Shown piece after piece: positions 4,952-20,779 of a stretch of 64,000 nucleotides of DNA. Below the pieces are notes generated by a model. The model saw only the letters and a program-made list of their open reading frames with translations. It ran no database searches and was not told the DNA's origin. The stretch is taken from the NCBI RefSeq assembly GCF_013410345.1, contig NZ_JACCFJ010000001.1, positions 2,331,001-2,395,000 of the forward strand, written 5' to 3'. The DNA is from Saccharopolyspora hordei. Its GTDB lineage: Bacteria > Actinomycetota > Actinomycetes > Mycobacteriales > Pseudonocardiaceae. Every line of letters begins with the position of its first letter. Position 1 is the first letter of the stretch. Made by a program: the position numbers and the translations under genes.

Positions 4952-5906
4952 CGTCCTCCCCTTTCTGCTCCCTCTCGGTCTTATCGACCGAGCAACACAG
5001 TTGTGACGCCTTGACGGGCTCGCACGCTCGCGACTTTCGCTCAGATCACCCGTACGGGGCAGGGTGTACTTCGCTGGGCAATCGGTTGGATGCGTTCCGT
5101 GTCCGCCGCGACTTCCGAGATCCGGTGATCGGAGACCGCGCGCCCCTCCAGTGGGGGCGCGGTGGGTCCACGGTCACGCCAGTGGAAGGTCCACCGCGAA
5201 CTGATCCGGTAGGGCTTCTCGAACCGGTGTGCTAGAACTCGTCGGGTGACCAGCGCGGCTACTGTCCGTAGCTGGGCTCCTCGGCTGCGCTCAGGGCACT
5301 CGATCCGTCGCCCCCGCCTTGCGGAACTCGGCTTCGCGCCCGGCGTGACCACCGGGTTCACCGCTCCGTCGAGTTCGCGTGGCGCCGAGTTCGAGAATAG
5401 GCGATCGGGCCTGCGGCCTGGGCAGGCGCGCGGGCTGCCGGTGTAACGCTCGCCACGGCGATTCCCCGATTCGGACTAAGATCTCGTGACTTCTCCGTTA
5501 CGCTCCAGGCGTGCGGCCGAACGCTCGAGCGAGAGCGCCGTCACAGTGTGACCAGGATCGAGGACAGGGCACCAGGGTCCTATGGCCCGGTTCGGCGCCC
5601 CGGAGGCGATGAAACAGGTCACACCCGCAGCGGCAGCGGTGGCGGGCTGACGTCCGACTGTCGGCTTGACACCGCTGGGCGATCCCACTGCGAACAGTAC
5701 ACGTCCCGTCGCGGAGGGAGACAGCGCCTGGAGCGCGGGCCGGCCGTATCCTGGCCGCGGGACACCCCGTCGGGCGCGCCCGGCGAGGTGGCCCCGGCCG
5801 CAAGACCAAGCACGACCGATTAGGTGGAGCCCTGAGCGACGACGCCCGACCGGGATCCCGCCCCGCAGCCGCGGAGCCCGCGACCGACGACCACCACGCG
5901 CCGCGC
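4952..5906. other. 955-nt region without a convincing gene
   Basis: This holds the divergent upstream regions of ssgB (-) and the PGPGW membrane protein (+). Several short frames are open, but none has a coherent ribosome binding site, recognisable motif or good third-position bias. A hairpin (CCGCG, CCCC ... GGGGCGCGG) lies at about 5136-5162. A perfect 13-nt palindrome GTCACAGTGTGAC lies at 5540-5552. I see no match to RNase P RNA, SRP RNA or tmRNA hallmarks. The frame of the downstream gene stays open back to about 5832 with only a CTG as possible earlier start. Confidence 0.5.
5540..5552. promoter_or_regulatory. perfect palindrome, possible operator
   Basis: GTCACAGTGTGAC is a perfect inverted repeat around a central G, in the non-coding stretch upstream of the PGPGW membrane protein. 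A related half-site GGTCACAC occurs about 65 nt further on. The cognate regulator is unknown, and the spacing differs from a CRP site. Confidence 0.3.
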
Positions 5907-6375: not shown

Positions 6376-6447
6376 GGGCGATTAGCTCAGCGGGAGAGCG
6401 CTTCGTTCACACCGAAGAGGTCACTGGTTCGATCCCAGTATCGCCCA
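6376..6447 (+). tRNA. tRNA-Val(CAC)
   Basis: Acceptor GGGCGAT pairs with ATCGCCC. The anticodon arm CTTCG-TTCACAC-CGAAG gives CAC. The T arm contains GGTTCGATCC, the discriminator is A, and no CCA is encoded. It marks the left edge of the CRISPR island. Confidence 0.95.
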
Positions 6448-6452
6448 CAGCG

Positions 6453-6486
6453 AGATGCCCCGCCCGTGGACTACGGCGGGGCATCT
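6453..6486 (+). terminator. terminator of tRNA-Val(CAC)
   Basis: AGATGCCCCGCC (6453-6464) pairs perfectly with GGCGGGGCATCT (6475-6486) across a 10-nt loop, five bases after the tRNA 3' end. Confidence 0.85.
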
Positions 6487-6976
6487 GTCGTTTCGAGCGG
6501 TACCGGGAGCACAGGCTGCCAGCGTTGCGGCGTCCCGCGTTCGAGGACCGCTTGTCGGCTTCCGTCCCGCCGATCACCCGGAGCGTGCCGACCTGGCGAG
6601 CGCGATGCGCGATGGCCGACGCTCTTCGCGGCCGGCTGCCACGACGTCGGTCGGGGGGATGGCGAGAGGATCGTCCTCACCGATCGCGGATGCTCGAGAC
6701 CATGGGAGTGCTTGGGCTATCGCAAAAGGGTTGTCCATCGATCTCGACGCCATGTCCATGGTGGCATTCCTGACACAGCCCAGCCAGGATCGGACCGTGC
6801 GCCAGGCGACCGGAGTCGTCCGGAGCGGTACTGCACACGGGCTAGGGGAGCGAGGAACGGTGCGAGCACCTCTTCATCACATGATGGAGTCGGGAGAGAC
6901 GTCACAACCACGTGCCACCCGTCGAGAACCGCGCCAAAACGAGCAACGCCGTCGATGAAACCCCAGGTCACGAAGT
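6487..6976 (+). other. non-coding stretch containing the CRISPR leader
   Basis: No gene is convincing here. Composition drops to a visibly more AT-rich level than the flanks. The last 80-100 bases before the first repeat, ending CAGGTCACGAAGT, are the leader-proximal side. This is inferred because the repeats at the opposite end of the array are the degenerate ones and the repeat hairpin/handle orientation reads rightward. An open frame on the minus strand here simply runs out of the array and is not a gene. Confidence 0.55.
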
Positions 6977-7492
6977 CTGCTCTCCACGCACGTGGAGGTG
7001 ATCCGGCGCACCGGGAAAAGGCAAGCTGATCAGGGGTCTGCTCTCCACGCACGTGGAGGTGATCCCGGGCCAGCATCTCGCCGACGGCCTCTCTGTTCCT
7101 GCTCTCCACGCACGTGGAGGTGATCCCCTGCGGGCGGTGCGAGATCTGGCTCGTGAGCACTGCTCTCCACGCACGTGGAGGTGATCCCGGATGCACGTCG
7201 CTGAACGTCGTCTGCACCGCCTGCTCTCCACGCACGTGGAGGTGATCCGTACTCGCCGAGCTGGTCCCAGACTTCGTAGAACTGCTCTCCACGCACGTGG
7301 AGGTGATCCGACGGATCCGAGGCCGGTCAGGGCCGCGGTGGTCTGCTCTCCACGCACGTGGAGGTGATCCGCTCGCCCACCTCCGTGAGGGCGGGCACCA
7401 CCGCTGCTCTCCACGCACGTGGAAGTGATCCGGTGCTGGCAGCGATCCTGCCGGCAGCCGCGGTCTGCTCTCCACGCACGTGGAGGTGCGCA
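6977..7492 (+). CRISPR. type I-E CRISPR array, 9 repeats, 8 spacers
   Basis: Repeats of 28 nt (CTGCTCTCCACG..., ending GGTGATCC) start at 6977, 7038, 7099, 7160, 7221, 7282, 7343, 7404 and 7465, exactly 61 nt apart, so every spacer is 33 nt. Each repeat contains the 7-bp hairpin CTCCACG/CGTGGAG followed by a GTGATCC handle, as expected for processing by Cas6e. Repeat 8 has one change (GGAAGTG for GGAGGTG). Repeat 9 is intact for 24 nt and then diverges. The right end is therefore leader-distal and transcription is rightward. Nearest cas genes are the cas3 relic at 7659 and cas6e at 9119. Confidence 0.98.
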
Positions 7493-7658
7493 CATCTAGG
7501 TGCTCGGCGCGGCCTGGACGATGACACGTGGCCCGGAGACGCTCTTCATCGAGCACAGGGATGCACCAGGATGACTCATGTTGATCTGTTCGGGTGATCG
7601 TGTTCACGGGACTGGCGGTTCTGTCAGGGGGGACCGCTAGCGTGCGCTCGCGTTCGAA

Positions 7659-7970
7659 ATGATCTACGTGCTCGTGATGGGGCCCGGCGTCGTGGTCGTG
7701 GACTTGCGTTTGTGGGGGAAGCAGCGCGGTCTTGGTGGCGGAATCCTGTACCGGTTGGTGTGCCACGGATTGTCTGCTGCGGCCGCGGTTCGGGTGTTGT
7801 GGCGAGATGTGCTTTCACTCCGTTTGCGAGAAAGGCTGGCCGCGGGGTTGGGCTTGTCAGAGGCCGAGGCGTGTGCGGTGCTGGAGTTGTGGGCCTCGTT
7901 GCACGATGTCGGAAAACTGACGCCGTCGTTCCGAAGGCAAGGACAGGTGCCGCCAGGGTGCGGACGATGA
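7659..7970 (+). pseudogene. truncated second cas3 (HD-domain N-terminus only)
   Basis: The frame begins like a Cas3 N-terminus (VDLRLWGKQRGLGG), continues with the first HD-domain helix LVCHGLSAAAAV, and reaches the HD motif SLHDVGKLTPSF before losing similarity at about 7945 and stopping at 7970. Only about 95-104 of the usual 800-950 codons remain, with no helicase domain. Possible starts are ATG 7659 or ATG 7677. It is on the opposite strand to the complete cas3 at 14260-16677 and clearly differs from it in sequence, so it is the remains of another I-E system and not a local duplicate. The DNA between 7970 and 8126 has no recognisable cas sequence. Confidence 0.75.
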
Positions 7971-8125
7971 TTCGTCAGACACGAACGTCGCGCACGGGCC
8001 GGCGAGGGTCCGCTAACAGTCGGCGTGCTTGGTCTCCGCTGCAGGGTGAGTCGGCCTAGCTGGCGTTGAGGGATGCTACGAATCCGTAGATCGGAAGTGT
8101 CGGTGGTTCCTGGCAACCTGCAGAC

Positions 8126-9076
8126 GTGCCGATCGTTGACCAGGCTCGACGTTCTACGAGTGTGTTGTCCTGCTTGCTTGATGACAGGTTGCCCCACCGT
8201 GGTGCCATAGAGGATGGCTGGAGGGAAGCGCTTCGAGCTGCTCCGGGTCCGGATTGCGGTTTGCGCGAGAGATGGGACGACGTCGGGAGGGCCCTGGAGC
8301 TCCGCATCGGCCTTGATCTCTGCCGACACCCAGAACCTGCCGGGTTGCTGTCGTACCTTCCTCCGACGCGGTACGCAGACCTGCTGAAAGCCGTCGGTAT
8401 GCGGCGGGAGGAGGCTCGTTGCTCGCCAGCTGCACGCACCGGTGATCCGCTCGCGATGGACTGGGTACGGGTCGATTCGCAGGTCGTCGACGAGGAGCAG
8501 GAACGGCGTGCACTCGAGACTTGTCTGGATCTCATGGAGGTCAGGGACCTGGCTCACACGCATCCGGACTGGGCGGTCGAACGACGTCGATCCGTCTTCA
8601 CCAAGATCATGAAGAGTGGTCCTCTCGGGGCCGATGCCGAAGCGAGGGACGCTCTTGGCAAAGCGTGGGCGCAATACCTGGAGCACGGGCGCGAGAATTT
8701 CCATCGATTGGGATCTCGCGTCCTCGTGTCTCCCGAGATCGCGAGTGGTTTCGGGATAGCTGATCTCGTCGTCGGTGATGCGCTGGTCGATGTCAAGATC
8801 GCCAGAGGTTCCGCTCCTCCGGTGGGTGAGTGGTTGCGGCAGCTCCTCGGTTACCTGCTTCTGGACTGGGACGACGTGTTGGGCATCGGCACGCTGAGTG
8901 TGTACGCGGGCTGGCAGGGAGTCATGCTGACTTGCCCGGTGGATGAGCTGCTCGCAACTGCGAGTCCCGGGCCCACTCCTACTCTGGCTGGGCTGCGTGA
9001 TGAGTTCCGCGCTGCCTTGCGTCCTGAGTTCCTCTCGTTCCTCACCAGCGGACGCCGCCACTCATCACAACGCTGA
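8126..9076 (+). CDS. PD-(D/E)XK-like nuclease, actinobacterial hypothetical family
   Basis: A 316-residue soluble protein. The N-terminal half (LLDDRLPHRGAIEDGW, then ELRIGLDLCRHPEP) resembles a family of actinobacterial hypothetical proteins seen in accessory regions. The C-terminal half has a restriction-nuclease-fold signature: FGIADLVVGDALVDVKIA puts an Asp at about residue 213 and an Asp-x-Lys at 222-224. A QLLGYLLLDW helix and a short strand pair follow. Function as a DNase is inferred, and the substrate is unknown. The start is GTG 8126, with a weak ribosome binding site. It lies between the cas3 relic and the convergent cas6e, a defence context, but there is no evidence that it works with Cas proteins. 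Confidence 0.6.
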   Translation: MPIVDQARRSTSVLSCLLDDRLPHRGAIEDGWREALRAAPGPDCGLRERWDDVGRALELRIGLDLCRHPEPAGLLSYLPPTRYADLLKAVGMRREEARCSPAARTGDPLAMDWVRVDSQVVDEEQERRALETCLDLMEVRDLAHTHPDWAVERRRSVFTKIMKSGPLGADAEARDALGKAWAQYLEHGRENFHRLGSRVLVSPEIASGFGIADLVVGDALVDVKIARGSAPPVGEWLRQLLGYLLLDWDDVLGIGTLSVYAGWQGVMLTCPVDELLATASPGPTPTLAGLRDEFRAALRPEFLSFLTSGRRHSSQR

Positions 9077-9118
9077 CAGGACTCGATCGGTGGGATGCTT
9101 CGTCGTTTTGGCGATGGA

Positions 9119-9808
9119 TCAGTTGCGATGCGGTGGAGCGAGGGAGAGCAGCCCGCAGCCGTAGGATTTCGCGGGGCCGACGCCGTTGGCGACGGCCTCG
9201 ATGAAGGCATCGCGGTCGGTGATGATGAGGTGCCCGTCGTAGCGAACTGGGGAGACAGTCAGTTTGTTCAGGCGTTGACCGCTTTGGAGTCCGGTGAGTC
9301 TAGGAAAGGACGTGACGGCTACGTCGGGACGGTCGCCGGTGTCGGCTGGGATGGCGAAACCGTGCTTGGCACCTTGCTTGATCAGCCAGGTGATCTGAGC
9401 TTCCGGTTTGAGGATCGGGTAGCGGTTGTCGCGCCGGCTCACCCGGTCGGGATCGCCTTGGTCTTCGAGGCGCAGGCGCTTGGTCGGATTTCCCATCAGC
9501 CGGAAAGCGAATGACTGGCCCGGTTGAAGCGCATCGAGCAGGGGAGAGAGATCGCGGACCTCGGCCGGGCGGGAGAGGTAGCCGTCGAGGTGGTCCCAGC
9601 TCGGGCGTGTGCGGCTCTGGACGTACAGGGTGAAGCCGGTGCGCGCGGGATCCAGTCGCCACAGCACGGCGTGGTGTGTTCGTGCGGGTGTACCTGCGGT
9701 GGTGTCGGGGAACCCGGACATGATGGTGCGGTGCATCTGGTGCAGGTCGCAGTGGTCGCGGCGGAACGCGTGCGCGGTGGTGTCAGGGGTGAGTCGGCTC
9801 AGGTACAC
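9119..9808 (-). CDS. cas6e: Cas6e (Cse3) pre-crRNA endoribonuclease
   Basis: A 229-residue RAMP protein that cleaves the repeat hairpin of pre-crRNA and stays in Cascade. The catalytic His26 sits in MHRTIMSGFPD. The C-terminal glycine-rich loop is GVGPAKSYGCGLLSLAP. The GTG start at 9808 overlaps the end of cas5e by 10 nt. It is the last gene of the minus-strand interference operon and is convergent with the PD-(D/E)XK gene. A second, diverged cas6e 3' end occurs on the other strand at 16808-16954. Confidence 0.93.
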   Translation of the reverse strand: MYLSRLTPDTTAHAFRRDHCDLHQMHRTIMSGFPDTTAGTPARTHHAVLWRLDPARTGFTLYVQSRTRPSWDHLDGYLSRPAEVRDLSPLLDALQPGQSFAFRLMGNPTKRLRLEDQGDPDRVSRRDNRYPILKPEAQITWLIKQGAKHGFAIPADTGDRPDVAVTSFPRLTGLQSGQRLNKLTVSPVRYDGHLIITDRDAFIEAVANGVGPAKSYGCGLLSLAPPHRN

Positions 9809-10545
9809 GGGTGTGCTCCGGAGTGGATCAAAGCGGTGGTGAGCGGGACGTGTCCGGTGCGGACTGAGCGGCTCGTGAACAGGCGGTTCCGTGGATGGAA
9901 GGACTGAGGAACGTCCTGCCGTGGCTCAGCGAGTTCGTCGGTCGGGTCAGTGTCGATGAGGGTGCGCAAGAGGTGCTCCTGCCCTTCGGCTAGAGCCCTT
10001 CGCGCGCGCTCTCGAAGATCAGACCGGTTCTCCAGCCAGCAATGTCCTTCTAGCGTGGCCTCCAGCGATCGGTCTGCGATACCCAGGCACTCGTCGTCCG
10101 GGTGGGGAGCGACGAGAGGTCGTGCGGGTACGAAAGCTCGGCGGCCGAAGTAGAGCGGCCATCGTGGACGATGGAGTGCGGTGTGCCAGCGGACCAGTTC
10201 TTCGCGGTCGGGATGTTCGAGCACGACGAGGAACAACGCGTCGGCGAGGTAGTAGCGCTGGCTGAGGATCGTGCGGTGTTTCTTGCCCTCGGTGTTCGGC
10301 ACGTTGTTCACGGTGTGGAAGTCGCGCTCGACGATCCCTTCGCGGTCGGCGCGTACCCCCATGCGGACCGTCGCCAGACGTCTGATCGAGTCTGTGTCGT
10401 GGCGTGGTATACCAAGGGCAGCTGCCAGCAGTCCGACGATTCCAGACTTGGTGGGTTCTTGAGCGGTGTCGCGGCTCTGGAAGCGGGAGCGCAATCCCCA
10501 GGATTGCATCGGAGCGTCCAGGCACAGCGCCAAAGTGTGGGTCAT
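9799..10545 (-). CDS. cas5e: Cas5e (CasD) Cascade subunit
   Basis: A 248-residue RAMP protein that binds the 5' handle of the crRNA in Cascade. The family start LCLDAPMQSWGLRSRFQSRD, with the conserved PMQSWG, is intact. So are TKSGIVGLLAAALGI, the RDFHTVNNVPNTEGKKH region and the C-terminal HPRNRLFTSR. The ATG overlaps the stop of cas7e in ATGA. Length is normal. Confidence 0.95.
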   Translation of the reverse strand: MTHTLALCLDAPMQSWGLRSRFQSRDTAQEPTKSGIVGLLAAALGIPRHDTDSIRRLATVRMGVRADREGIVERDFHTVNNVPNTEGKKHRTILSQRYYLADALFLVVLEHPDREELVRWHTALHRPRWPLYFGRRAFVPARPLVAPHPDDECLGIADRSLEATLEGHCWLENRSDLRERARRALAEGQEHLLRTLIDTDPTDELAEPRQDVPQSFHPRNRLFTSRSVRTGHVPLTTALIHSGAHPCT

Positions 10546-11708
10546 GCGTGATCCAGTGCCGTAGCCAGGAGCCGAGAGGTGAACTCACCGACGCTGGTGA
10601 CAACGTCCGCGGTGGGCAGCGTGTCGTTACTGCAGCTGAGTGCGGCGCCGACCACCGTGCGCAAGTCCTCGGTGCCGTAGAAGTCGCGAAGTGCCTTGAA
10701 GTGTGTGAACAGTCGTTCGGTGGAGGTGCCCAGGAGGTCGGTGCCGGTCACCGGACGGAGGAAGGCGTTGGCCAGGTTCCAGGCACCGCGAGTACGTACT
10801 GTGCCGAGGAAGGTCTCGGGCATGGTGCGCGCCGCGGTCGTGCTCTGCTTCCCACCCGGAGTGGCGTGGATGAATGCTCCGAGCCACGCGCGGGCGGCCG
10901 CTGCGACGAGTTCGTCGTCGCCGTCCAAGTTCTTGGCCAGCTGGGCGAGATCGAGGTTGGCGTACCGGTAGTAGCAGGCGCTGTTGAAGTCGATCGTGCC
11001 GATCATGTCCGCCCCGGGCTCGGCATCGCGCTTGAGGTCGTCGACCGCGGTGTAGTAGTCGAATTCAGTCGTGACGGCATGTGTCGACAGAGCGTGCGCC
11101 ACCTGTGATGCGGCAGTGACGTTGAAGTCGGTGTTGTCGGCGATCATGCGACCGAACAGGGCGATGTCCGCAGCGCGGGTGGCGTCGAAGATGCGTTTGG
11201 CAGCAGCGGCGAACTCCTTGCTTGGTTTGACCTTGGCGCGCTTGGTTGGCTTGTTCGACGACTTCGTTTTCTTCTTCTTCGCCGCTTCCTCCTTCGCCTC
11301 GGTGAGCGACTTGTCGATCGCGCTCCAGTTCTGCTCGCAGAAGTTGGCGAGCAGATCGATCGCGTCCTTGCCGACGAAGAGGAGGTACTGCGTCAGCTGC
11401 GTCTGCTCTACCCCGAAGCCGAGCAAGTGCAGTGCCTCGGCAGCGATCTCTGCGGCCTTTCCGGCGTCGTGTCCGCGCTCACCGAGGACCTCTGCGGTTT
11501 TCGTGACCAGACGCTTCGTCCGGGACCCGAGGTGCGTCGGGTCCAAGCCGTGCTCAGCGAACAAGTCTCGTGCCGCTCGCTTGAGCGACTGGCTGGAGAT
11601 TCGAGCGCGCGGTACGCCGCCGAACGTCGCGCTCTTGGGTTGGCCGAGGTCGTCTCGGTTGAGGTTGCTGACGGGGAAGGACTGGAGCAGGTGCAGTTCG
11701 AGGATCAT
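10542..11708 (-). CDS. cas7e: Cas7e (Cse4) Cascade backbone subunit
   Basis: A 388-residue Cas7-family RAMP that forms the crRNA-binding backbone of Cascade. The N-terminus ELHLLQSFPVSNLNRDDLG followed by GGVPRARISSQSLKRAAR is diagnostic. A lysine-rich insert (EEAAKKKKTKSSNKPTKRAK) at about residues 138-157 is unusual. The start is the ATG at 11708, overlapping the cse2 stop as ATGA. A longer upstream frame that includes part of cse2 is not used. Confidence 0.95.
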   Translation of the reverse strand: MILELHLLQSFPVSNLNRDDLGQPKSATFGGVPRARISSQSLKRAARDLFAEHGLDPTHLGSRTKRLVTKTAEVLGERGHDAGKAAEIAAEALHLLGFGVEQTQLTQYLLFVGKDAIDLLANFCEQNWSAIDKSLTEAKEEAAKKKKTKSSNKPTKRAKVKPSKEFAAAAKRIFDATRAADIALFGRMIADNTDFNVTAASQVAHALSTHAVTTEFDYYTAVDDLKRDAEPGADMIGTIDFNSACYYRYANLDLAQLAKNLDGDDELVAAAARAWLGAFIHATPGGKQSTTAARTMPETFLGTVRTRGAWNLANAFLRPVTGTDLLGTSTERLFTHFKALRDFYGTEDLRTVVGAALSCSNDTLPTADVVTSVGEFTSRLLATALDHA

Positions 11709-12304
11709 TGGTCGCTCTCCTGGGGTTCCTTGCCGTTGTCGTCCTTGGGAGTGCTGTTGCGCTCTCGGTGGAAGTCGCGTGCCCATTTCCACCGGACATC
11801 ACGTGCGCGTTCTTCATCACGGGGGCGGCGCATCAGTGTGACCGCGTCATCGAGCAGGGCGTGGAAGTCCACGGCGATGTCGTGACTGGCCAGCAGCTGC
11901 AGTGACTGACGCAGGTGGTGCGGGAGCGCATGGGCGTCGGCGGCCAACAGTTGCCGGAGCCGCTTCTGCGCAGTGGAGCTGACTCGCTGACGGTCGAGCT
12001 CTCGCAGTGCGGTCCCAAGAGGAAGACCCGAAGACCCGTTCTGCGGATTGAGTGCGAACAAACCGGCGATGAACAGCCAGATGTGTTCCTCGTCCTGTGG
12101 GGGGCCGCACTCGAACACGGTGGCGAGGGCTTCGTTCTCGTACCGGTTCCCGGTGACCGAGCGGCGTAGCTGTGCCAGCTTTCGGCGCGCTGCCTGCGCG
12201 TCGCCTTTTTTCCCCGACGTCAAGTCGTTCGCGAGACTGCCGAGATGATCGACGAACGCCTTTCGCCGCCGTTCACGAAACGAGAGCTCATTCTCGCTCG
12301 TCAT
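11705..12304 (-). CDS. cse2: Cse2 (CasB) small Cascade subunit
   Basis: A 199-residue helical protein of the Cse2 family. Two copies line the target strand in Cascade. Characteristic features are the basic N-terminal helix FRERRRKAFVDHLGSL, the AARRKLAQLRRSV helix, the GLFALNP segment and the C-terminal DDAVTLMRRPRDEERARDVR. The chosen ATG 12304 overlaps the end of cas8e by 17 nt; an ATG at 12316 is an alternative. The stop overlaps the cas7e start (ATGA). Confidence 0.9.
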   Translation of the reverse strand: MTSENELSFRERRRKAFVDHLGSLANDLTSGKKGDAQAARRKLAQLRRSVTGNRYENEALATVFECGPPQDEEHIWLFIAGLFALNPQNGSSGLPLGTALRELDRQRVSSTAQKRLRQLLAADAHALPHHLRQSLQLLASHDIAVDFHALLDDAVTLMRRPRDEERARDVRWKWARDFHRERNSTPKDDNGKEPQESDQ

Positions 12305-13919
12305 CGTCGACTCCATGCTGTGGGAGGAATGCTGTGACCCGGTCGTCGAAGATCCGGCGTTGCTTGGAGACATTCCGTTCGAACTCCTCATGAGCACCGG
12401 CGAACTCGTAGAGGTGCCTGCCCTGTCGTTCCTGCAGTTGCGTCACCAAACGCCCAGCAGCTCTCCTGGCGATGTCGCAGGTGATGTGCTTCCACTCCAG
12501 CACAGATGCCTTCGGTGAAGTGCCGACGTTGACAGCGCGGCCCAGATCAAGCAGCAGTTCTGCGAACGGTGCAGGGAGGTGTGGCCAGTAGTCCTGGGTC
12601 AAGCCGAAGTTGTGCTTGGCGTTGCGTTTCTCCTTGGCTTCGTGTTCGGCGCGGAACGCGGCTCGGCAGTTCTCAGCCAGCCTGAGCAAAGCGTCACCAA
12701 GCTCGTCGGCGAGCGCTACGCAACTCCCCAGCACGCCACCGATCTCGGGGTTGCGAGCGTTGAGCAGTGCGGCGGGTGCCGGAACTTGCTCTTCGAGCCA
12801 GGTGTAGACCGAGCCGCCACCACTGTCATCCAGTTGCTGGCCGAACACGCGGATGGTGAACACCGCATCCCGCGGCAGCGTGCCTTCTTCGACCTGCTCG
12901 GCGACGTGGTCGAGCACGCGTGGCCGCTGATGCCGCTGCTCGTCGTCGACCAACAGCATCTCGCGCGCGTGGCGCCACACTCCGCGCAGTTCGTGCAGCC
13001 GTACGGGATTCCACGAGCCGGCATCGTCCTTCTTCTTCGAGGCGCGGTGCTCGAAGGCGGCCATGAGTTCAGCGCGGTAGAGCTCGTCACCTTTCAACGC
13101 TGTTCCTGGGGTGATCGCCACACCATCGACCGCGGTGCCATCACCGGTGGGGCGTAGCAAGACCCGGCGGGTTGGCCAGGTCAGTAGGTCGAGCCAGCCG
13201 TAGGGGAGCCGTTCGGACGGTTCCGGACCAGGGGGCGCCGCTTCCCATGCGGGCCGGTCTTCGTGCGCGGAGCTCCACGGCAAGTCATTGGCAGGGTCGT
13301 AGAGGCACGTGTTCAGCAGCAGCGTCTCCTTGAGCGTGCTGCCTTCGACGAGGACGACTCCGAACCGATTGCACAAGCCGGCCTGAGAAGTCTTCGTCTT
13401 CGTGAAAGCCGTTTTCGTGCCACCAGGGTCGTAGGACTGGACCGTCACCAGCCACCGTGCGGCCTCACCAGGAGAGAGGATCAGAGTGTCCGCAGCCGTG
13501 GTTTGGTCGAACAACGTCCCGTTGCTGCCCGCGGACCGGAAGTGCACCAGTTGCGCCGCTGATCGCGCCTCCAGTTTCCCCAACTCTGGGCACTGCAGGA
13601 AGGGGCGTTGCGCGTCGAACAGGTCGAACTCGTCTGCGTGCGCGTCGAGATAGTGATGCACCTGATCGGCTGGCAACGCAGGTGCGGTCCACAGCTCTCG
13701 CCACCGCTCTGACGTCGTCGGGCCGCCCACGGCGCGGTGCAACACCGCCAGCAAAAGCCTGTGCAACGCTGCGGTCATCGAGGCCGCCTCCGCTGCGAGC
13801 CAGCGCAGCTCGTGTGCCTGGAGGAACACGTCGCGCAGGCTCACTGTGTCCGGGCGGCCATCACAGCGGATCACTGGGATCCAGCGTTCTGTGGTGAGGT
13901 CGAAGGACGGTGTGGTCAT
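12288..13919 (-). CDS. cas8e: Cas8e (Cse1/CasA) PAM-recognising large subunit
   Basis: A 543-residue Cse1 protein, which recognises the PAM and recruits Cas3. The N-terminal FDLTTERWIPVIRCDGRPDTVSLRDVF is the family signature. The AQRPFLQCPEL and FVIR-type internal segments and a C-terminal helical bundle are present. Start ATG 13919 overlaps the stop of the 115-aa unknown gene as ATGA. A longer upstream frame lacks similarity and overlaps that gene completely. Confidence 0.93.
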   Translation of the reverse strand: MTTPSFDLTTERWIPVIRCDGRPDTVSLRDVFLQAHELRWLAAEAASMTAALHRLLLAVLHRAVGGPTTSERWRELWTAPALPADQVHHYLDAHADEFDLFDAQRPFLQCPELGKLEARSAAQLVHFRSAGSNGTLFDQTTAADTLILSPGEAARWLVTVQSYDPGGTKTAFTKTKTSQAGLCNRFGVVLVEGSTLKETLLLNTCLYDPANDLPWSSAHEDRPAWEAAPPGPEPSERLPYGWLDLLTWPTRRVLLRPTGDGTAVDGVAITPGTALKGDELYRAELMAAFEHRASKKKDDAGSWNPVRLHELRGVWRHAREMLLVDDEQRHQRPRVLDHVAEQVEEGTLPRDAVFTIRVFGQQLDDSGGGSVYTWLEEQVPAPAALLNARNPEIGGVLGSCVALADELGDALLRLAENCRAAFRAEHEAKEKRNAKHNFGLTQDYWPHLPAPFAELLLDLGRAVNVGTSPKASVLEWKHITCDIARRAAGRLVTQLQERQGRHLYEFAGAHEEFERNVSKQRRIFDDRVTAFLPQHGVDDDERE

Positions 13920-14263
13920 TCTTCGTCCTCCTCGATGCGCAGTCCGGTGACCTCGTCCACTGTGAAGCGCACTGGCCCGCTGCGGGCGGCCCCGTCGAGC
14001 ACGAGCAGATGGTGGTTGTGCAACCAACCGCTGCGCATGAAGTTGGTCGGGATCGGGAGGCCGCACACGACCTCGTAGGCACGAGGCGTGAGGTCGCTTG
14101 CGTAGACCTGCACGCTCGAATTGAGCAGTGCCTGTTGCTCGTGTTCGGTGAGGTCGTGTTCCGGGTCGAGGTCGATGGGGATGCCGTCGAGCGTTGTCGG
14201 ATGCGGTGCCCCGGGTCGCAGCAGCACGACGTCGAAGGGCTCCAGGTCGAGCGCGTCGATCAT
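13916..14263 (-). CDS. unknown 115-aa protein inside the cas operon
   Basis: A small acidic protein encoded between cas3 and cas8e. The start ATG 14263 overlaps the cas3 stop (ATGA), and its stop overlaps the cas8e start (ATGA). It is therefore translationally coupled on both sides and should be made in step with Cascade. An earlier GTG at 14278 would lie inside cas3. Residues 1-45 are Leu/Pro/Asp-rich with no motif. The second half has a beta-like pattern (AYEVVCGLPIPTNF, then SGWLHNHHLLVLDG, then VRFTVDEVTGLRI) and an acidic tail. No signal peptide, membrane helix or known Cas family is recognised. It could be a Cascade accessory, a Cas3-control factor or a stowaway. Confidence 0.8.
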   Translation of the reverse strand: MIDALDLEPFDVVLLRPGAPHPTTLDGIPIDLDPEHDLTEHEQQALLNSSVQVYASDLTPRAYEVVCGLPIPTNFMRSGWLHNHHLLVLDGAARSGPVRFTVDEVTGLRIEEDEE

Positions 14264-16677
14264 GCTCGGTCTTTCCACGCAGTGTCTTTGCGAGTTCGTG
14301 CTGCGACAGTGGGTTGATCTGTCAGACGCCGCACCGAGTCGATCGGGCGCAACGGCGGTAGGTAGAAGCGGCGTACTCGTGATTCGTCATCGCTCTCCTG
14401 CCGGAACAGGGTTGCTTCAGCTTTCTCGAACCGTGGCCGCAGATTCCCCTGCGGCGGCATGTGATCGGTGTACACGGCGTGGACGAGCTCCGGTGCTTCT
14501 TCGGGCAACTTGAGTTCCGTGCGCCCCCACAGCACCGACCACGTGCGCAAGAGCAGCGCGGTCGGATACACGTTGTGCAGGCCCTGTGCGAACTTCGGCC
14601 CATCCCTTCCTGTGTGTGGCTGGATCAGACCGAGTTCCGGCATCGGACACGAGCGCTGCAGGGGATCGCGATCATGGCGGTGCACTCGCCCGAGGCGTTG
14701 GATCAGTTCGTTGACCGGCGCGAGATCGCTGACCAACAGGTCGAAGTCCACGTCCAAGCTGTGCTGGAGCACTTGCGTCCCGATCACGATGGCATGAGGT
14801 CGGCTCGTCGCGTCTGGGCCGAACTCACGGCGCAGCTTCTGCTCGATCGCCGTCCGTTTTCCTGCGAGAACTTGGCTTGTGAGGAAGACCAGCTCGGGTT
14901 GCTCCTCCCACGCTCGCACCTCTTCGGTCAACCGAGCCATGGTTTGCTCGGCATCGCGGACGAGGTTGCGCACGACCAGCGCACAGCCTCGTGTGCTGAC
15001 ACGGGCGCGAAGCCAGTCCACGAGATCCTCGTCGGCGAGGTGGTGCACGGCCACGGCAGGCCGTCTGGCGTTGGTGGCGGACAAGCCGATCGACTTGCTC
15101 CGTGCTTCTCCGGTAGCACCGACCCAGGTGACCACTTGCCCGCCTCGGACTGCCTGCAACGGTTCGACAGCTCCGGGCGCGAGTCGGTTCCGCCCAGCAC
15201 GCCAGTGCGCGATGAGTTGCTCGCGATCGCCCGCGGGCAACGTGGCCGACATCAATACGCAGGGCATGCCGAACCGGCCGCACCACCACATCAGGCGGCG
15301 GAGCAACGTGGTCATGTGCGCGTCGACGTCGTGCACCTCATCGAGGACGAGGACTTTGCCCGACAGTCCAGTCAACCGAACGAAGACATGCCGAGAGCGG
15401 ATCACCGCTTGCAGCGCTTGGTCGATCGTGCCCACGCCGACGGGGAACAGCAGTCCGCGTTTGCGAGTGAACCACTCGTGTCCGTCGTGAGCGCCATCGC
15501 CGTCCTCGTCGATGCAGGAAGGGGCGACAGTAGGACCGGCCTTGACCAAGTTCGGTGGTTGCTCGAGCCCGAGACCGGAAGCCACCTCGCTGAGCTCGTG
15601 ATGGACTTGGGCAGCGGTCGCTCGCGTCGGCAGAGCGAAGTACATCCCTGTCAAGCCGAGCCGGCCGACGAGGGTTGCCGCCGCCTGGAAACCTGCGCGA
15701 GTCTTGCCCTCGCCGGTAGGCGCCTCGATGACCAGCACACCAGGCTCGACCACGTCGGCGAGGACCTCCTCGACGGCTTGCTGCAGTGGCCGTTGAGGGC
15801 CGCCGAACAACGCCGAGTAGGACGTGTCGTGCGGCGGTATCCACCGCTTCCACTTGAGCTTCTCGACCACCGCCTCGGCCGCCCGCTTCCGAGCTGTGGC
15901 GAGGTAGGCGTCGAGACTGGCCAGCTCCGCACCAGCAAAGGGGAAGTTGTCGGTGTCGGAGGCGACCCAATCCGCAACCGAAGCAAGACCAGCGAGACCG
16001 ACCATGCCCGGTACATCCAGAGAAGCCGCACTCCACCTGGCATCTGCTGGATCTCCGAGGCCCCACAGTCGTGAGACCTCTCGCACCAGTGAGCGGCGCA
16101 GCTCATACCACGGTTCGCTCCCGTGGTGCTTCACCTTCGTGCTCGCTTCCTGCACAGCTCGGGCCGACAACAGGGAACCGTGGTGGCCACCGAGGCCGTA
16201 GGCGAGCGTGTCGCGCAGGCGGGTTCCAGCTCCCCACTCGTCCAGACACCTGCGCAGGTGCACGGCCGTCAGCGTGCCGTGTGGTGTCCGCACAGAGTGG
16301 TCGCGGGAGCCGCGATGGAGTGCGTTCACCAGCTCCTTGACTTCATCACCGAGGTACTCGACCGCCAAGTCATGACGCATCGCCTGGAAGATCGGGCTGC
16401 ACTTGCCGATGTCGTGCAGCCCGCACAACACCGCCACCCACGACCGCACGTCCCCGAGCGGGGCCAGGCCAGATTCCAGATCGCGTCGAACTCCAGGACC
16501 CAGCAGCACGTCGTAGAGCAGCTCGGCGACAGCCGCGGTATCGATCGCATGGCACACCAGGGGGTGTGGCACTTCCTCCTTGCCGGCTTTCCCCCACGCT
16601 CCCCACACCGGAGCGTTGACACCGACCCCGAACACCCGCTCACCCCAGATTTCACGCCACGGGGACTTGAAGATCAT
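14260..16677 (-). CDS. cas3: Cas3 HD nuclease-helicase (type I-E)
   Basis: An 805-residue effector that nicks, unwinds and degrades DNA marked by Cascade. The HD nuclease has PLVCHAIDTAAVAE (His43), the HD motif at GLHDIGK (about 88-89) and GLGGHHGSLL. The SF2 helicase has Walker A in APTGEGKTRAG, Walker B box VLDEVHDVDAHM, motif III LMSATLPAG and motif VI ELIQRLGRVHRH. All catalytic motifs look intact. It is the first gene of the minus-strand operon. The region upstream (16678-16807) must hold its promoter, back-to-back with the cas6e relic/cas1 on +. A second, truncated cas3 lies at 7659-7970. Confidence 0.95.
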   Translation of the reverse strand: MIFKSPWREIWGERVFGVGVNAPVWGAWGKAGKEEVPHPLVCHAIDTAAVAELLYDVLLGPGVRRDLESGLAPLGDVRSWVAVLCGLHDIGKCSPIFQAMRHDLAVEYLGDEVKELVNALHRGSRDHSVRTPHGTLTAVHLRRCLDEWGAGTRLRDTLAYGLGGHHGSLLSARAVQEASTKVKHHGSEPWYELRRSLVREVSRLWGLGDPADARWSAASLDVPGMVGLAGLASVADWVASDTDNFPFAGAELASLDAYLATARKRAAEAVVEKLKWKRWIPPHDTSYSALFGGPQRPLQQAVEEVLADVVEPGVLVIEAPTGEGKTRAGFQAAATLVGRLGLTGMYFALPTRATAAQVHHELSEVASGLGLEQPPNLVKAGPTVAPSCIDEDGDGAHDGHEWFTRKRGLLFPVGVGTIDQALQAVIRSRHVFVRLTGLSGKVLVLDEVHDVDAHMTTLLRRLMWWCGRFGMPCVLMSATLPAGDREQLIAHWRAGRNRLAPGAVEPLQAVRGGQVVTWVGATGEARSKSIGLSATNARRPAVAVHHLADEDLVDWLRARVSTRGCALVVRNLVRDAEQTMARLTEEVRAWEEQPELVFLTSQVLAGKRTAIEQKLRREFGPDATSRPHAIVIGTQVLQHSLDVDFDLLVSDLAPVNELIQRLGRVHRHDRDPLQRSCPMPELGLIQPHTGRDGPKFAQGLHNVYPTALLLRTWSVLWGRTELKLPEEAPELVHAVYTDHMPPQGNLRPRFEKAEATLFRQESDDESRVRRFYLPPLRPIDSVRRLTDQPTVAARTRKDTAWKDRA

Positions 16678-16807
16678 CTGCGGCGGACATCATGCAGGCT
16701 GCGTCTGACAGTTCGAGCGGGAATCTTGTGAATCTCGCAGAAACTCCCCCATATGGAGCAACTTCCGTGTCCGCTCTGGCGCGCGGTACCGTTCCGTTGT
16801 TCTTTGA

Positions 16808-16954
16808 CAACTCCACAACGACCTGACCAGCGAAGGCGCCGCCATCGTCACAGACCCCGATCGGTTGCGGGCCGCGATCATCGACGGGATCGGGAGGGCC
16901 CGCGCCTACGGGTGCGGGCTGCTCAGCATCGGCCCCGTGCCATCCGTGTCATGA
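16808..16954 (+). pseudogene. cas6e 3' relic upstream of cas1
   Basis: Reading in frame from 16808 to the TGA at 16952-16954 gives the C-terminal end of a Cas6e: EGAAIVTDPDRLRAAIIDG, then GRARAYGCGLLSIGP. The glycine-rich loop lines up with GPAKSYGCGLLSLAP of the intact cas6e, but the rest differs, so it comes from another lineage. An in-frame TGA at 16805 ends any upstream continuation, and no start codon or N-terminal domain exists. Its stop overlaps the cas1 ATG as ATGA, the normal cas6e-cas1 junction, showing that cas1 once sat at the end of a complete + strand I-E operon. Confidence 0.85.
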
Positions 16955-17931
16955 GCGTTCCGGATCCGCGGCGGCTGCTCACAGCGCCCACGGTGGCGAT
17001 GTTGCCACGCGCCGGCGATTCCTTGTCGTTCCTCTATCTCGAAGCGGTGCGCGTGGTCCAGGACGACACCGGCGTCTGCGCTCAAGTCGAGCAGGCAGAC
17101 GGCACCACCAGCCGCACCTACCTCCCGGTTGCAGCCATCTCCTGCCTGCTGCTCGGCCCAGGTACCTCGGCGACCCAGCCGGCGATGGCGACCTGTGCCC
17201 GTCACGGCACCACCGTGCTGTGGACCGGGGCTGGCGGAGTGCGCTTGTACTCCGGTAGTCACCCACCGAACCTGACCACCGCCTGGCTCGAACGCCAAGC
17301 CCGGGCGTGGTGCGACGAGAACGTCCGCCTGCAGGTCGCCACCCGGATGTACGCAAAGCGCTTCGGCACCGACCTGCCCGAGGGGACGAGTCTGCAGCAG
17401 ATGCGCGGACTGGAAGGTCAGCGGATGAAGACCCTCTACCGCTCGTTGGCGGACAAGCACAAGCTGCGCGGGTTCCGGCGGAACTACGATCCCCACAACT
17501 GGGACGAGGGCAATCCGGTGAACCAAGCGCTGTCGGCAGCCAACACCGCACTGTACGGGGCGGTCCACAGCGCGATCCTCGCGCTGGGCTGCTCACCGGC
17601 ACTGGGGTTCATCCACAGCGGCAAACAGCACTCCTTCGTCTACGACGTCGCCGACCTCTACAAGGCCACGCACACCGTCCCGCTCGCGTTCGCCCTCCAC
17701 AAGCACCCGAACCCCGATCGCGAAGCTCGTCGACGTCTACGACGTGACTTCTACCTCTACAAGTTGATGCCCACCATCGTCCGGGACATCCAAGAACTCC
17801 TCGACCCCGAGAGCAGCACCAGCACAGACGAGCTCGATGACCCCGAGGAGATCGAACTCGTCCACCTCTGGGACCCCGAGCTCGGTCCTGTCGACGCAGG
17901 TGTCAACTACGCCCAACAGGGAGACGGCTAG
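16951..17931 (+). CDS. cas1: Cas1e integrase
   Basis: A 326-residue type I-E Cas1, the catalytic subunit of the Cas1-Cas2 spacer integrase. The N-terminal beta domain is followed by the alpha domain with catalytic Glu (GLEGQRMK, about E155) and His and Asp in GFIHSGKQHSFVYDVADLYK (about H222 and D232/D235). Length is normal and the frame is intact. The ATG overlaps the stop of the cas6e relic. The gene is followed after 5 nt by a broken cas2, so integration activity would need a Cas2 from elsewhere. Confidence 0.92.
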   Translation: MSVPDPRRLLTAPTVAMLPRAGDSLSFLYLEAVRVVQDDTGVCAQVEQADGTTSRTYLPVAAISCLLLGPGTSATQPAMATCARHGTTVLWTGAGGVRLYSGSHPPNLTTAWLERQARAWCDENVRLQVATRMYAKRFGTDLPEGTSLQQMRGLEGQRMKTLYRSLADKHKLRGFRRNYDPHNWDEGNPVNQALSAANTALYGAVHSAILALGCSPALGFIHSGKQHSFVYDVADLYKATHTVPLAFALHKHPNPDREARRRLRRDFYLYKLMPTIVRDIQELLDPESSTSTDELDDPEEIELVHLWDPELGPVDAGVNYAQQGDG

Positions 17932-17936
17932 CCACC

Positions 17937-18071
17937 ATGCCCAACCTCGTCGTCATCTCCACGACCGCTGTGCCCGACTACGTCCGCGGGTCGCTGAGCC
18001 GGTGGCTCACCGAACCTGCGCCCGGCCTCTACGTCGGCTCGATGTCCGCCCGAGTCCGCGACCAGCTCTGG
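17937..18071 (+). pseudogene. 3'-truncated cas2 (Cas2e)
   Basis: The ATG and first 45 codons are a perfect Cas2e N-terminus (NLVVISTTAVPDYVRGSLS, then APGLYVGSMSARVRDQLW). Similarity stops at about 18071, and the frame then continues without family resemblance straight into the antisense of the neighbouring rubber oxygenase gene. Cas2e proteins are normally about 90-115 residues, so half of the ferredoxin-like fold and the Cas1-binding C-terminus are lost. The break point between 18071 and 18122 marks the right edge of the CRISPR island. Confidence 0.85.
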
Positions 18072-18122
18072 CCAGCACGTACCCGAGGAACCGCCGGCGG
18101 CTCGTCCTGCTCGGCACGGTGG

Positions 18123-19355
18123 TCACTCCGGACGGTTGTGGGTCGGGATCTCGATCTTCGTCTCCTCACCCTTGGTGAGGTAGAAGAGGATGTACTGGCG
18201 CAGCGCCTCGTCGATCGTCCAGGCCACCTCGGGCACCATCGGCAACGGGACGAGGCCTTCGCGGAACTTCACCAGCAGCGGCCACGCCTCGCGGACCACC
18301 GGGTCCCACACCGGTTCGTGCTGGATGCCGTCCCAGTCGGCGGCCTGGTCGCCGACCAGGTAGCGCGCGAGCGCGTTGCACAGCGGCCGGCTGATGCTCG
18401 CGGGGCTGGTCTGTTCGGCGAGCTGGCCGAGCAGGATGTCGGTGAGCTTGACGCCTTCCCAGGTCGGACCCATGTTGCGGGCCAGGATGAGGTCCGACTG
18501 CGCGTAGGCCGCGTCCCAGGTGGCCGGGATGTACTCGTCGGCGATGCCGAGCATGTGCCCGGTGACCTGCCACAGGTGCAGGTAGGCCTCGGCGTCGTCG
18601 TCGCTGATCGGGACCTCCCACTCGCGCATCTTGCGCATCGCGAAGGTCGGCAGGGTGTGCCAGGTGACCAGCATGTCCTCCTGGCTGATCGGGATCTCCT
18701 CGTCGGTTCCCGCTTTCCAGTGCGGGGACTGCGGCAGCAGGTGGCGGACCGCCGCGTGCACCAGCCTGGTCTTGACGCACTCGACGATGCACTTGCCGTC
18801 GGGCCGGTAGGCGTTGAGCGAGCCGACGGCGAACCCGAAGAGGCTGGTCTTGGCGACCCGGTCCTCCATGTCCGCGCCGCCCGCCGAGTGGTACACCGCC
18901 CGTGCTTCCTTGGGGATGGCGGTGGCGAGGATGCCGCCGCCCGGGCCGTTGCACAGGTTGAGGTAGAGCCCGCGGCTCTTGTTGAACTCGGCCGCCCGCT
19001 CGAGCTTCTCGTGGTCGGCCCACGGCGGCAGCTGCCGGGCGTGCTCCATGAAGTCCCGCAGGTCGGCGGGGAGTCCGTCCGGCAGCGGCTGGTCGTTGCG
19101 CTCCCAGTTCCACAGCAGTTCGTTGACCTTCGGGATCACGCCCCGGTCGAACAGCGAGGACAGCAACGGGTCGCCCTCGGGGTCCCAGACGTAGGCCGGG
19201 TCGGTACCGGCTCCCCGGCCCGCGACCGAGTTCCGGGGCGACCAGTCCCAGCCGACCAGTGCCCGCGCCTGCGCCGGCGCGGTCGCGACCAAGGCGCCCA
19301 GCGCCGCGAGGCCGCCTGCTGAGATCAGCGCCTTGCGTCTGCTGAACTCCACCAT
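18123..19355 (-). CDS. lcp: latex-clearing protein (rubber oxygenase), copy 1
   Basis: A 410-residue secreted b-type haem dioxygenase of the Lcp/DUF2236 family, which cleaves cis-1,4-polyisoprene endolytically to oligo-isoprenoids with aldehyde and ketone ends. The N-terminus has a twin-arginine-type signal (FSRRKALISAG, then a hydrophobic stretch ending in AQARA), consistent with Tat export. The core holds VKTRLVHAAVRHLLPQSPHW (conserved Arg/Lys/Thr) and DMLVTWHTLPTFAMRKM with the proximal haem-ligand His. The start is well placed after GGAGGAG. It lies 75 nt after the second lcp and is probably co-transcribed with it. The role is inferred from the family. Confidence 0.88.
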   Translation of the reverse strand: MVEFSRRKALISAGGLAALGALVATAPAQARALVGWDWSPRNSVAGRGAGTDPAYVWDPEGDPLLSSLFDRGVIPKVNELLWNWERNDQPLPDGLPADLRDFMEHARQLPPWADHEKLERAAEFNKSRGLYLNLCNGPGGGILATAIPKEARAVYHSAGGADMEDRVAKTSLFGFAVGSLNAYRPDGKCIVECVKTRLVHAAVRHLLPQSPHWKAGTDEEIPISQEDMLVTWHTLPTFAMRKMREWEVPISDDDAEAYLHLWQVTGHMLGIADEYIPATWDAAYAQSDLILARNMGPTWEGVKLTDILLGQLAEQTSPASISRPLCNALARYLVGDQAADWDGIQHEPVWDPVVREAWPLLVKFREGLVPLPMVPEVAWTIDEALRQYILFYLTKGEETKIEIPTHNRPE

Positions 19356-19430
19356 GTTCGTGCTCCTCCTCCGGGTAGTCGACGTCGTCGGTGTGCGGCC
19401 TCGCGGATCGCTGGGCCTCGGTGTGTCGCG

Positions 19431-20654
19431 TTAGGACGGACGGTTGTGGGTGGGGATCTCGATGCTGATCGGGAAGTTGGCCTCGGACAGGTAGACCAGG
19501 ACCACCTGGCGGATGAACTCCTCGAAGAGGAAGTACGTCTCCTTCGAGCCGGGGAAGTTGAGGCCGAACTCGCGGGCGGCGATGAACGGCCGCCAGAACG
19601 TGTTGATCAGCGGGTCGAAGACAGGTTCCTTCGGGATCTCCAGCCAGTCGGCGATCTGGTCGCCGAGCGTGTACCGCGTGAAGGAGCCGAGCAGCGGCCG
19701 GGTGAGCACGGTGCCGTCGAGGTCCTTGCCCATGTCGAGCAGGATGTTGGCCAGGTCCTTGCCCTCCGGAGTCGGTTCCAGGATGGGCGTCAACACCTGG
19801 TCGGCCTGGGAGTTGGCCTCGTCCCAGGACTTCGGGATGTACTCGTCGCGCACGCCGAGCATGTGCGCGGTCACCTGCCACACGTGCAGGTAGGCCTCGG
19901 CGTCGTCGTCGCTGATCGGGATCTCCCACTCGCGCATCTTGCGCATCACGGTGGTGGCGAGGCTGTGCCAGGTCACCATGGTGTCGGCCTGGCTGATCGG
20001 GATCTCCTCGGGCGCGGCGTCGTTCCAGTGCGGCGACTGGGGCAGCAGGTGGCGCACCGCCGCGTGCACGATGCGGGTCTTGACGCTGGTGATGATCATC
20101 GACCCGTCGGGGACGTAGGCGTTCTGCGTGCCGATGTCGTAGCCCAGCTTGGCCGTCTTGGAGATGCGGTCCTTCATGTTGGCGCCGCCGTAGGAGTAGT
20201 AGACGGCCCGCGCCTCCTTGGGGATGACCGTGCTCACCATCCCGCTCGCCATGGCGTACAGCACGCCCAGGTAGAGGCCGCGCCGCTTGTAGAAGTCGAA
20301 GGCCTGCGCCAGCTTGTCGTGGTCGACCCACGAGGGCAGCTGGCGGAGTTCTTCGAGCAGGTCCCGCACGTCCGTCGGCAACCCGTCCGGCAGCGGCTGG
20401 TCGTTGCGGATCCAGGTCCGCAGCAGTTCGTTGACCTTGGGGACGTCACCGCGTTCCAGCAGTGAGGCGATCACCGGGTCCGCCACGGTGTCCCAGATCT
20501 CCGCGGGGGTGGGGCCGCCGGCGGCCGGGACCGCCCCTCGCTGCGACCAAGTCCACAGTGCACGCGCGTTGGCCGGGACTGCCGCTCCCAGCACGCCCAG
20601 CGCTCCCAGAGCGCCGCCCGCCATCAGTGCCTTGCGTCTGCTGAGCTCTTCCAT
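19431..20654 (-). CDS. lcp: latex-clearing protein (rubber oxygenase), copy 2
   Basis: A 407-residue paralogue of the downstream lcp with the same architecture. It has the twin-arginine signal LSRRKALMAGG followed by a hydrophobic region and cleavage near NARA. The haem pocket segments are VKTRIVHAAVRHLLPQ and TMVTWHSLATTVMRKM, and the C-terminal IEIPTHNRP is shared by both copies. The start is ATG 20654, 6 nt after a strong GAGGAGGAG. It is divergent from a TetR regulator, with an inverted repeat in between. Two different Lcp enzymes in tandem are known from a few rubber-degrading actinomycetes. Confidence 0.88.
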   Translation of the reverse strand: MEELSRRKALMAGGALGALGVLGAAVPANARALWTWSQRGAVPAAGGPTPAEIWDTVADPVIASLLERGDVPKVNELLRTWIRNDQPLPDGLPTDVRDLLEELRQLPSWVDHDKLAQAFDFYKRRGLYLGVLYAMASGMVSTVIPKEARAVYYSYGGANMKDRISKTAKLGYDIGTQNAYVPDGSMIITSVKTRIVHAAVRHLLPQSPHWNDAAPEEIPISQADTMVTWHSLATTVMRKMREWEIPISDDDAEAYLHVWQVTAHMLGVRDEYIPKSWDEANSQADQVLTPILEPTPEGKDLANILLDMGKDLDGTVLTRPLLGSFTRYTLGDQIADWLEIPKEPVFDPLINTFWRPFIAAREFGLNFPGSKETYFLFEEFIRQVVLVYLSEANFPISIEIPTHNRPS

Positions 20655-20697
20655 CGGCGGAACTCCTCCTCGAGTCGCGCCCCCCGGGCTGAAACCT

Positions 20698-20724
20698 TGA
20701 TACGCGAAGTGCTTCGCCGTATCA
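20698..20724. promoter_or_regulatory. inverted repeat between lcp and tetR (operator)
   Basis: TGATACG-CGAAG (20698-20709) faces CTTCG-C-CGTATCA (20712-20724), a near-perfect palindrome of 12 paired bases with one extra C. It lies 44 nt upstream of lcp copy 2 and 56 nt upstream of the TetR gene, the usual position of a TetR operator controlling both directions. Confidence 0.65.
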
Positions 20725-20779
20725 TGAGAGCACGATGTGAGGTGGAACACCAGACCCTCTCGAACGAAAGGCGGCTCAG

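Follow-up and report, generated by a model that had tools for sequence, protein, structure and literature searches.

How did a complete type I-E CRISPR interference core come to lie between pieces of another type I-E operon on the opposite strand? The question is raised by a stretch of 64,000 nucleotides from Saccharopolyspora hordei, family Pseudonocardiaceae (positions 2,331,001-2,395,000 of a 5.78-Mb, single-contig genome), here called the window. A minus-strand core, termed m (9119-16677; gene order cas3, cas3C, cas8e, cse2, cas7, cas5, cas6e), is bracketed by plus-strand remnants and an array of a resident system, termed p (Table 1). Our reading, to which we assign a probability of about 0.8, is that a foreign m cassette, inserted in inverted orientation, took the place of the interference genes of the resident p system, that this cassette lacks adaptation genes and would use the resident array, and that spacer acquisition at this locus is dead.

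A first-pass annotation of this DNA had described a complete minus-strand core, and profile searches agree. For each of m cas3, cas8e, cse2, cas7e, cas5e and cas6e, one or more Pfam or NCBIfam models give a score above their curated cut-off. None of the seven m genes is interrupted, and the type I-E effector set (cas8e, cse2, cas7e, cas5e, cas6e) is present. The m Cas3 retains the HD, Walker A, DExH and helicase motifs. A complete cas1-cas2 adaptation module is absent next to the m effector, and the cas2 in the window is only a half. The annotation's idea of two type I-E systems nested in one another holds for the nesting; the incoming core is a member of an adaptation-less clade and not a whole CRISPR system.

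The flanking pieces are recognizable parts of one operon. On the left, the cas3 fragment at 7659-7970 matches Pfam Cas3_HD (E 6.8e-17, profile positions 1-77 of 207), and its similarity to p-type Cas3 stops at ~7958, as anticipated for a gene cut inside its HD domain. On the right, a cas6e remnant is joined through an overlapping stop-start to cas1, which is matched over its full length, followed by a half cas2, as had been described; Cas2 proteins of six relatives are 101-121 amino acids long. The p locus L004 of Haloechinothrix aidingensis matches the cas6e end, cas1 and half cas2 as unbroken DNA over 16831-18071 (70.8%, 1252 columns); genome G226, of the window's family, has p-locus proteins 100% identical to those of L004. 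Taken alone, the 42-amino-acid cas6e remnant cannot tell p from m: it is 46-68% identical to p rows, and two m rows reach 60% and 66%. Its assignment to p rests on position and on the continuous DNA match. Flanks without likeness to Cas3 or Cas6e, an outcome that would have spoken against the annotation, are not what was found: the left fragment matches Cas3 and the right piece matches a p operon.

The two gene sets have separate ancestry. In a Cas7 tree of 53 rows, a branch with support 100/100 sets apart the 34 m rows, as one also does for the 17 p rows, and in a tree of 35 Cas3 N-termini the 12 m rows form their own clade (98/97). In the latter, the window fragment lies close to p rows together with the fragments from L030 and L089, although these rows are short and their exact positions weakly supported. 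The L132 fragment groups with a third lineage, L033-type (100/97), and the L093 fragment is on the same side without a resolved place. Window Cas1 is placed within p (100/100). These three trees support the proposed replacement of a resident interference core by an inverted foreign one, and they dispose of the idea that the flanks are recent duplicates of the minus-strand genes. The suggested comparison of GC content brought no separation (0.647 versus 0.671).

Intact relatives show what the resident operon may have looked like. The uninterrupted plus-strand arrangement that the annotation had sought was found in p operons such as L114, L115 and L118, in which cas3 through cas2 are all matched. 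In the window's own genus, L031 (genome G005) has p cas3, cas8, cas7, cas5 and cas6e in order and a cas1 cut after ~93 residues. Arrays flank p operons on both sides in Haloechinothrix, Streptomonospora, Glycomyces, Streptomyces, Marinitenerispora, Nocardiopsis and other family members. The claim that the old array and cas1 were left behind is upheld by the p-family repeats and the placement of cas1, with the qualification that cas2 is not whole. The window array lies in a minority orientation relative to cas3, shared with 3 of 15 p loci that have an array upstream of cas3 (L005, L012, L123); the other 12 are opposite, as are L030 and L089. A locus-specific rearrangement is not needed to account for an orientation that recurs in this way. 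The array leader has the CCAGGTC form, found in the right arrays of L031 and L030 and in the left array of L004; since this form occurs on both sides of p operons, derivation from either the old left or the old right array is admissible. A candidate for the missing C-terminal half of cas2 to the left of the array (~6737-6787) was rejected as a chance-level match (E ~1, among the matches listed). At 14769-19037 of L030, genome G021 has a pair of p-type arrays whose leaders resemble each other, with pieces of the cas3 helicase close by, apparently a duplicated, decayed p locus.

The m type forms a clade of I-E systems in actinobacteria, and its cores are not accompanied by cas1-cas2. Two features define membership: a Cas8e that scores 384 bits or more in the survey of the family, and a Cas7 in the m clade. 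The window supplied the Cas8e query and so has the required Cas8e score by construction; its Cas7 falls in the m clade. Counting its own, 31 of 390 genomes of the family encode such a Cas8e, and the next matches reach at most 192 bits. Wider even draws, read at E up to 1e-75 and with the own genome included each time, gave 10 of 397 genomes at order level (8 being family members already counted), 3 of 394 at class level and 1 of 316 at phylum level. Among plasmids 105 records match, all below 60% identity (best 34% among the 20 listed), with no clear m member.

The survey of m loci covered 35: the window, L030, L032, L088-L113 and L128-L133. Contig ends truncate a few of these, besides L133, which is a contig of 4.4 kb. 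A whole cas1 adjoins the core in two, the window, where it is the resident p gene, and L032; neither has a whole cas2. L089 has a cas1 fragment near the core, and cas2 without a whole cas1 is found near the core in L089, L092, L098 and L132. Cas1e occurs anywhere in the genome in 15 of 31 m genomes, above the curated cut-off in 12. A hairpin-motif scan, which other kinds of repeat could escape, found at least two repeats in 22 of the 35 loci. In L032, the m locus of genome G014, the Cas1 at 4854-5888 stands directly beside an array with no cas2 match, and forms a long branch adjoining p Cas1.

Nesting is recurrent. Remnants of a different I-E operon lie beside the m core in 6 of the 35 loci, involving two resident lineages and both orientations. 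The core is inverted in the window (p cas3 5' end, cas6e 3' end, cas1, half cas2 and array) and in L089 (p cas3 fragment, cas1 fragment, cas2, and arrays on both sides). It is direct in L030 (p cas3 5' end, cas2 3' half, array), in L093 (a p-like cas3 5' part, 43% to L004), in L107 (p cas8, cse2 and the start of cas7) and in L132 (a cas3 5' part and cas2 of the third lineage). In two further loci, L092 and L098, a cas2 stands by itself on the strand opposite to the core. Because the six nested loci occupy at least four places in the Cas7 tree, several separate nesting events are likely.

The small minus-strand gene that the first-pass annotation had called unknown is real, and its relatives and predicted fold settle its identity as the Cas3 C-terminal domain encoded as a protein of its own (Cas3C). 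Its start codon overlaps the cas3 stop in an ATGA, and the two genes lie in different frames. The domain is present in 34 of the 35 m loci, as a separate gene in 31, usually starting on the cas3 stop, and fused to the Cas8e N-terminus in three. By comparison, the Cas3 of a second type I-E system in the same genome, termed o, carries its C-terminal domain fused (residues 855-955). Cas3-Cse1 fusions occur in Streptomyces. No description of a split-off Cas3 C-terminal domain was found in our literature search, from which subscription papers and preprints were mostly absent. Cas3C may act as a subunit.

In the sequence of events that we favor, an m cassette without cas1-cas2 of its own would have inserted inverted and replaced the p interference genes. 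The m Cas6e and Cascade would then process and use the resident p-family array, and m Cas3 would be recruited and cut, with the detached Cas3C either rejoining Cas3 or sitting on Cas8e as a subunit. Because cas2 is broken, acquisition would be dead and the memory frozen, limiting immunity to eight old spacers. Several observations weigh against this account. The right array is lost and three p genes are broken, and thus the locus may be decaying. Compared with phages, but not with plasmids or metagenomes, the array gave two records, each at E 0.5, and no convincing match for any spacer. Fewer than two repeats were found by the same motif scan in 13 of the 35 m loci (one being the 4.4-kb contig), so not every member of the clade makes use of an array nearby. 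Window Cas3C scores 23.3 bits against Pfam Cas3_C (9.1e-5), below the gathering score of 27. The p-type Cas3 of L004 gave no Pfam match to a fused C-terminal domain; the contrast between fused and detached forms therefore rests on the o-type Cas3 and on solved Cas3 structures. Searched against its own genome, the array has its best place besides itself at E 0.018.

A competing reading, less likely than not, is that the p locus had decayed before m arrived in it and that the whole is debris of a dead defense island in which nothing functions together. The broken p cas2, cas3 and cas6e, the absent right array and the unmatched spacers fit this view, as does the location of the region behind a tRNA that is a probable integration site in the genus. 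However, all seven m genes remain open with Cas3 catalytic motifs intact, and nesting in 6 of 35 loci is hardly expected of random landing in genomes of several Mb, a qualitative argument. Local inversion with partial duplication of a single I-E operon might be suspected from the cas6e ends, which occur twice and inverted (pair I17), and from the cas3 5' parts, which do likewise. It is ruled out by the Cas7, Cas3 and Cas1 trees, which group cas1 and the fragment of cas3 with p but the intact genes with m. Uninterrupted p operons, together with the same inverted nesting in G368, a genome of another genus, mean that neither assembly error nor local duplication explains the locus.

There is about an even chance that the nesting in the window and in G368 goes back to a single old event, the composite having then been inherited or transferred, rather than to two insertions. 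Their m cores fall in one four-row Cas3 N-terminal subclade with those of G021 and G351 (100/99), and both are inverted with compatible breakpoints; yet G021, of the same subclade and of the window's genus, has the direct orientation, and G351, also of this subclade, has no detected p remnant. In the window, the overlap of cas3 and cas3C in different frames could reflect ribosomal frameshifting that yields one protein, or a recent frameshift mutation, but this is very improbable given that the split recurs in 31 of 35 loci with the start usually on the cas3 stop, and that the domain is on Cas8e in three others.

A more tentative proposal, which we hold to be less likely than not, is that m is a mobile plug-in module without memory genes. 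It would invade I-E loci of different lineages and take over their arrays by matching Cas6e to the repeat. The Cas3 accessory domain would have moved to the Cascade side, ending in the Cas3C-Cas8e fusion, and some members that have no local array might be maintained by an element between cas3C and cas8e that acts in addiction or autorepression and is guarded by RNA. Hairpin pairs are seen between cas3C and cas8 in L088 (~11530-11670), L095 (~8266-8400) and L128 (~6477-6600), and also in L094 and L097. These elements consist of two CRISPR-repeat-like hairpins around a short spacer, the first 10-11 bases of which match a nearby site behind AAG; by eye, L094 and L097 have one mismatch, and the L097 site follows AAT. 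A small hydrophobic frame, also seen by eye, adjoins the element in L088, L095 and L128. By analogy they look like RNA-guided addiction or autorepression elements of the CreTA or CreR type, as far as the accessible parts of the reports on these describe them (PMC8501985, PMC12737573). A relaxed scan of 34 m loci gave four matches (L088, L095, L128 and one inside L096 cas3), with 0, 0 and 0 in resampled controls. A strict scan again returned L088 and L095, along with one match in the p locus L114 (~14848-15132) and five rows that lie in arrays; shuffles gave 0. Motif scans detected no local array in L088, L094, L095 or L097, and a scan of the window found no addiction-type element.

Table 1. 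Features of the CRISPR region, in window coordinates
Feature	Position	Strand	Basis
tRNA-Val(CAC)	6376..6448	+	ARAGORN
Leader end of array, resembling p-type leaders	6930..6977	+	sequence comparison
CRISPR array, p-family repeat; 9 repeats, 8 spacers, last repeat truncated	6978..7489	+	spacing 61
Conserved region 5' of resident p-type cas3	7574..7658	+	alignment 7804-7574 with L030
p cas3 5' remnant, part of HD domain only	7659..7970	+	Pfam Cas3_HD; tree
orf316	8126..9076	+	no confident family in profile searches; partial relative next to G015 tRNA-Val
m cas6e	9119..9808	-	TIGR01907 3.1e-24
m cas5e	9799..10545	-	TIGR01868 1.2e-45
m cas7e	10542..11708	-	TIGR01869 3.2e-88; start set by similarity, longer open frame to 11792
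m cse2 (cas11)	11705..12304	-	TIGR02548 3.2e-17; start set by similarity
m cas8e	12288..13919	-	TIGR02547 6.9e-55
m cas3C, separate Cas3 C-terminal domain gene	13916..14263	-	relatives and predicted fold; open frame to 14278
m cas3, HD and helicase without C-terminal domain	14260..16677	-	profiles; catalytic motifs intact
Region upstream of m cas3, conserved with G021 and G368	16678..16762	-	alignment
p cas6e 3' remnant	16814..16954	+	position, continuous DNA match
p cas1, intact	16951..17931	+	TIGR03638 9.2e-103, profile 2-268 of 269; tree
p cas2, 5' half	17937..18076	+	Cas2e profile positions 1-56 of 102

Synteny with six same-genus genomes (L160-L165) stops at 6448-6451, the 3' end of tRNA-Val; thus, the CRISPR region lies inside a tRNA-adjacent variable region. 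Partial copies (45-67 nucleotides) of this 3' end occur elsewhere in several of 22 genus genomes, and together with the synteny break they make tRNA-Val(CAC) a probable site of integration. Genomes noted in this connection are the window's, G018, G005, G008, G020 and G021; a second exact copy of the last 22 nucleotides was looked for in the window and not found. The GC content is 0.647 in the m core, 0.671 on the p right side and 0.72-0.73 in the flanks, and m and p alike look imported, so that composition cannot tell one from the other. A broken relative of orf316 adjoins tRNA-Val in G015 (L157 894-1310) and matches residues 1-91 and 254-316, which points to a probable island passenger. A plasmid search with orf316 gave no match, PHROGs assigned it no family, and a weak PADLOC match (E 0.069) hints very faintly at a segment resembling PD-(D/E)XK. 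Two related tandem genes, 54.5% identical, follow directly after the broken cas2 (18123-20750, minus strand). The o system (L028, ~2.90-2.91 Mb) has a different repeat and matched cas3, cas8, cas7, cas5, cas6, cas1 and cas2, with a 215-amino-acid frame in the cse2 position.

Natural core swaps that leave readable scars make the exchange of interference and adaptation modules directly testable. The detached Cas3C and the Cas8e fusion in a sub-branch offer a natural experiment on the role of this domain and on Cas3 recruitment to Cascade.

Type I-E systems have the canonical gene order cas3, cas8e, cse2, cas7, cas5, cas6e. Compared with those of E. coli and T. fusca, m has the same effector genes in the usual order; it differs in lacking cas1-cas2 and in having the Cas3 C-terminal domain separate or on Cas8e.

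Two unlike I-E operons in one species, as here, are known from Corynebacterium striatum (I-E and I-E'), for which the accessible text of PMC9944170 describes no nesting or core replacement. Streptomycetaceae I-E variants without cas1-cas2, either with tnsB/tnsC or also without cas3, are presented in the available portion of PMC12231136; m shares with them the lack of adaptation genes and the actinomycete hosts, but differs in its Cas3, which retains both the HD and the helicase motifs. The presence of cas3 likewise separates m from Streptomyces I-E systems without cas1, cas2 and cas3. I-E2, I-E3 and I-E5, derived I-E variants in the excerpted text of PMC12669027, resemble m as derived I-E effectors. 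Window Cas5 and Cse2 have no other domain above cut-off in Pfam and neither the HNH nor the PD-(D/E)XK of I-E2 and I-E3, which have HNH on Cas5 and PD-(D/E)XK on Cas11. As far as these two sources could be consulted, their adaptation-less variants differ from m. Like the Cas3'/Cas3'', Cas2-Cas3 and Cas3''-Cas10d fission and fusion forms in the accessible part of PMC7074321, among which the m form does not appear, m has Cas3 parts on separate genes; unlike them, it splits off the accessory C-terminal domain and not the HD nuclease.

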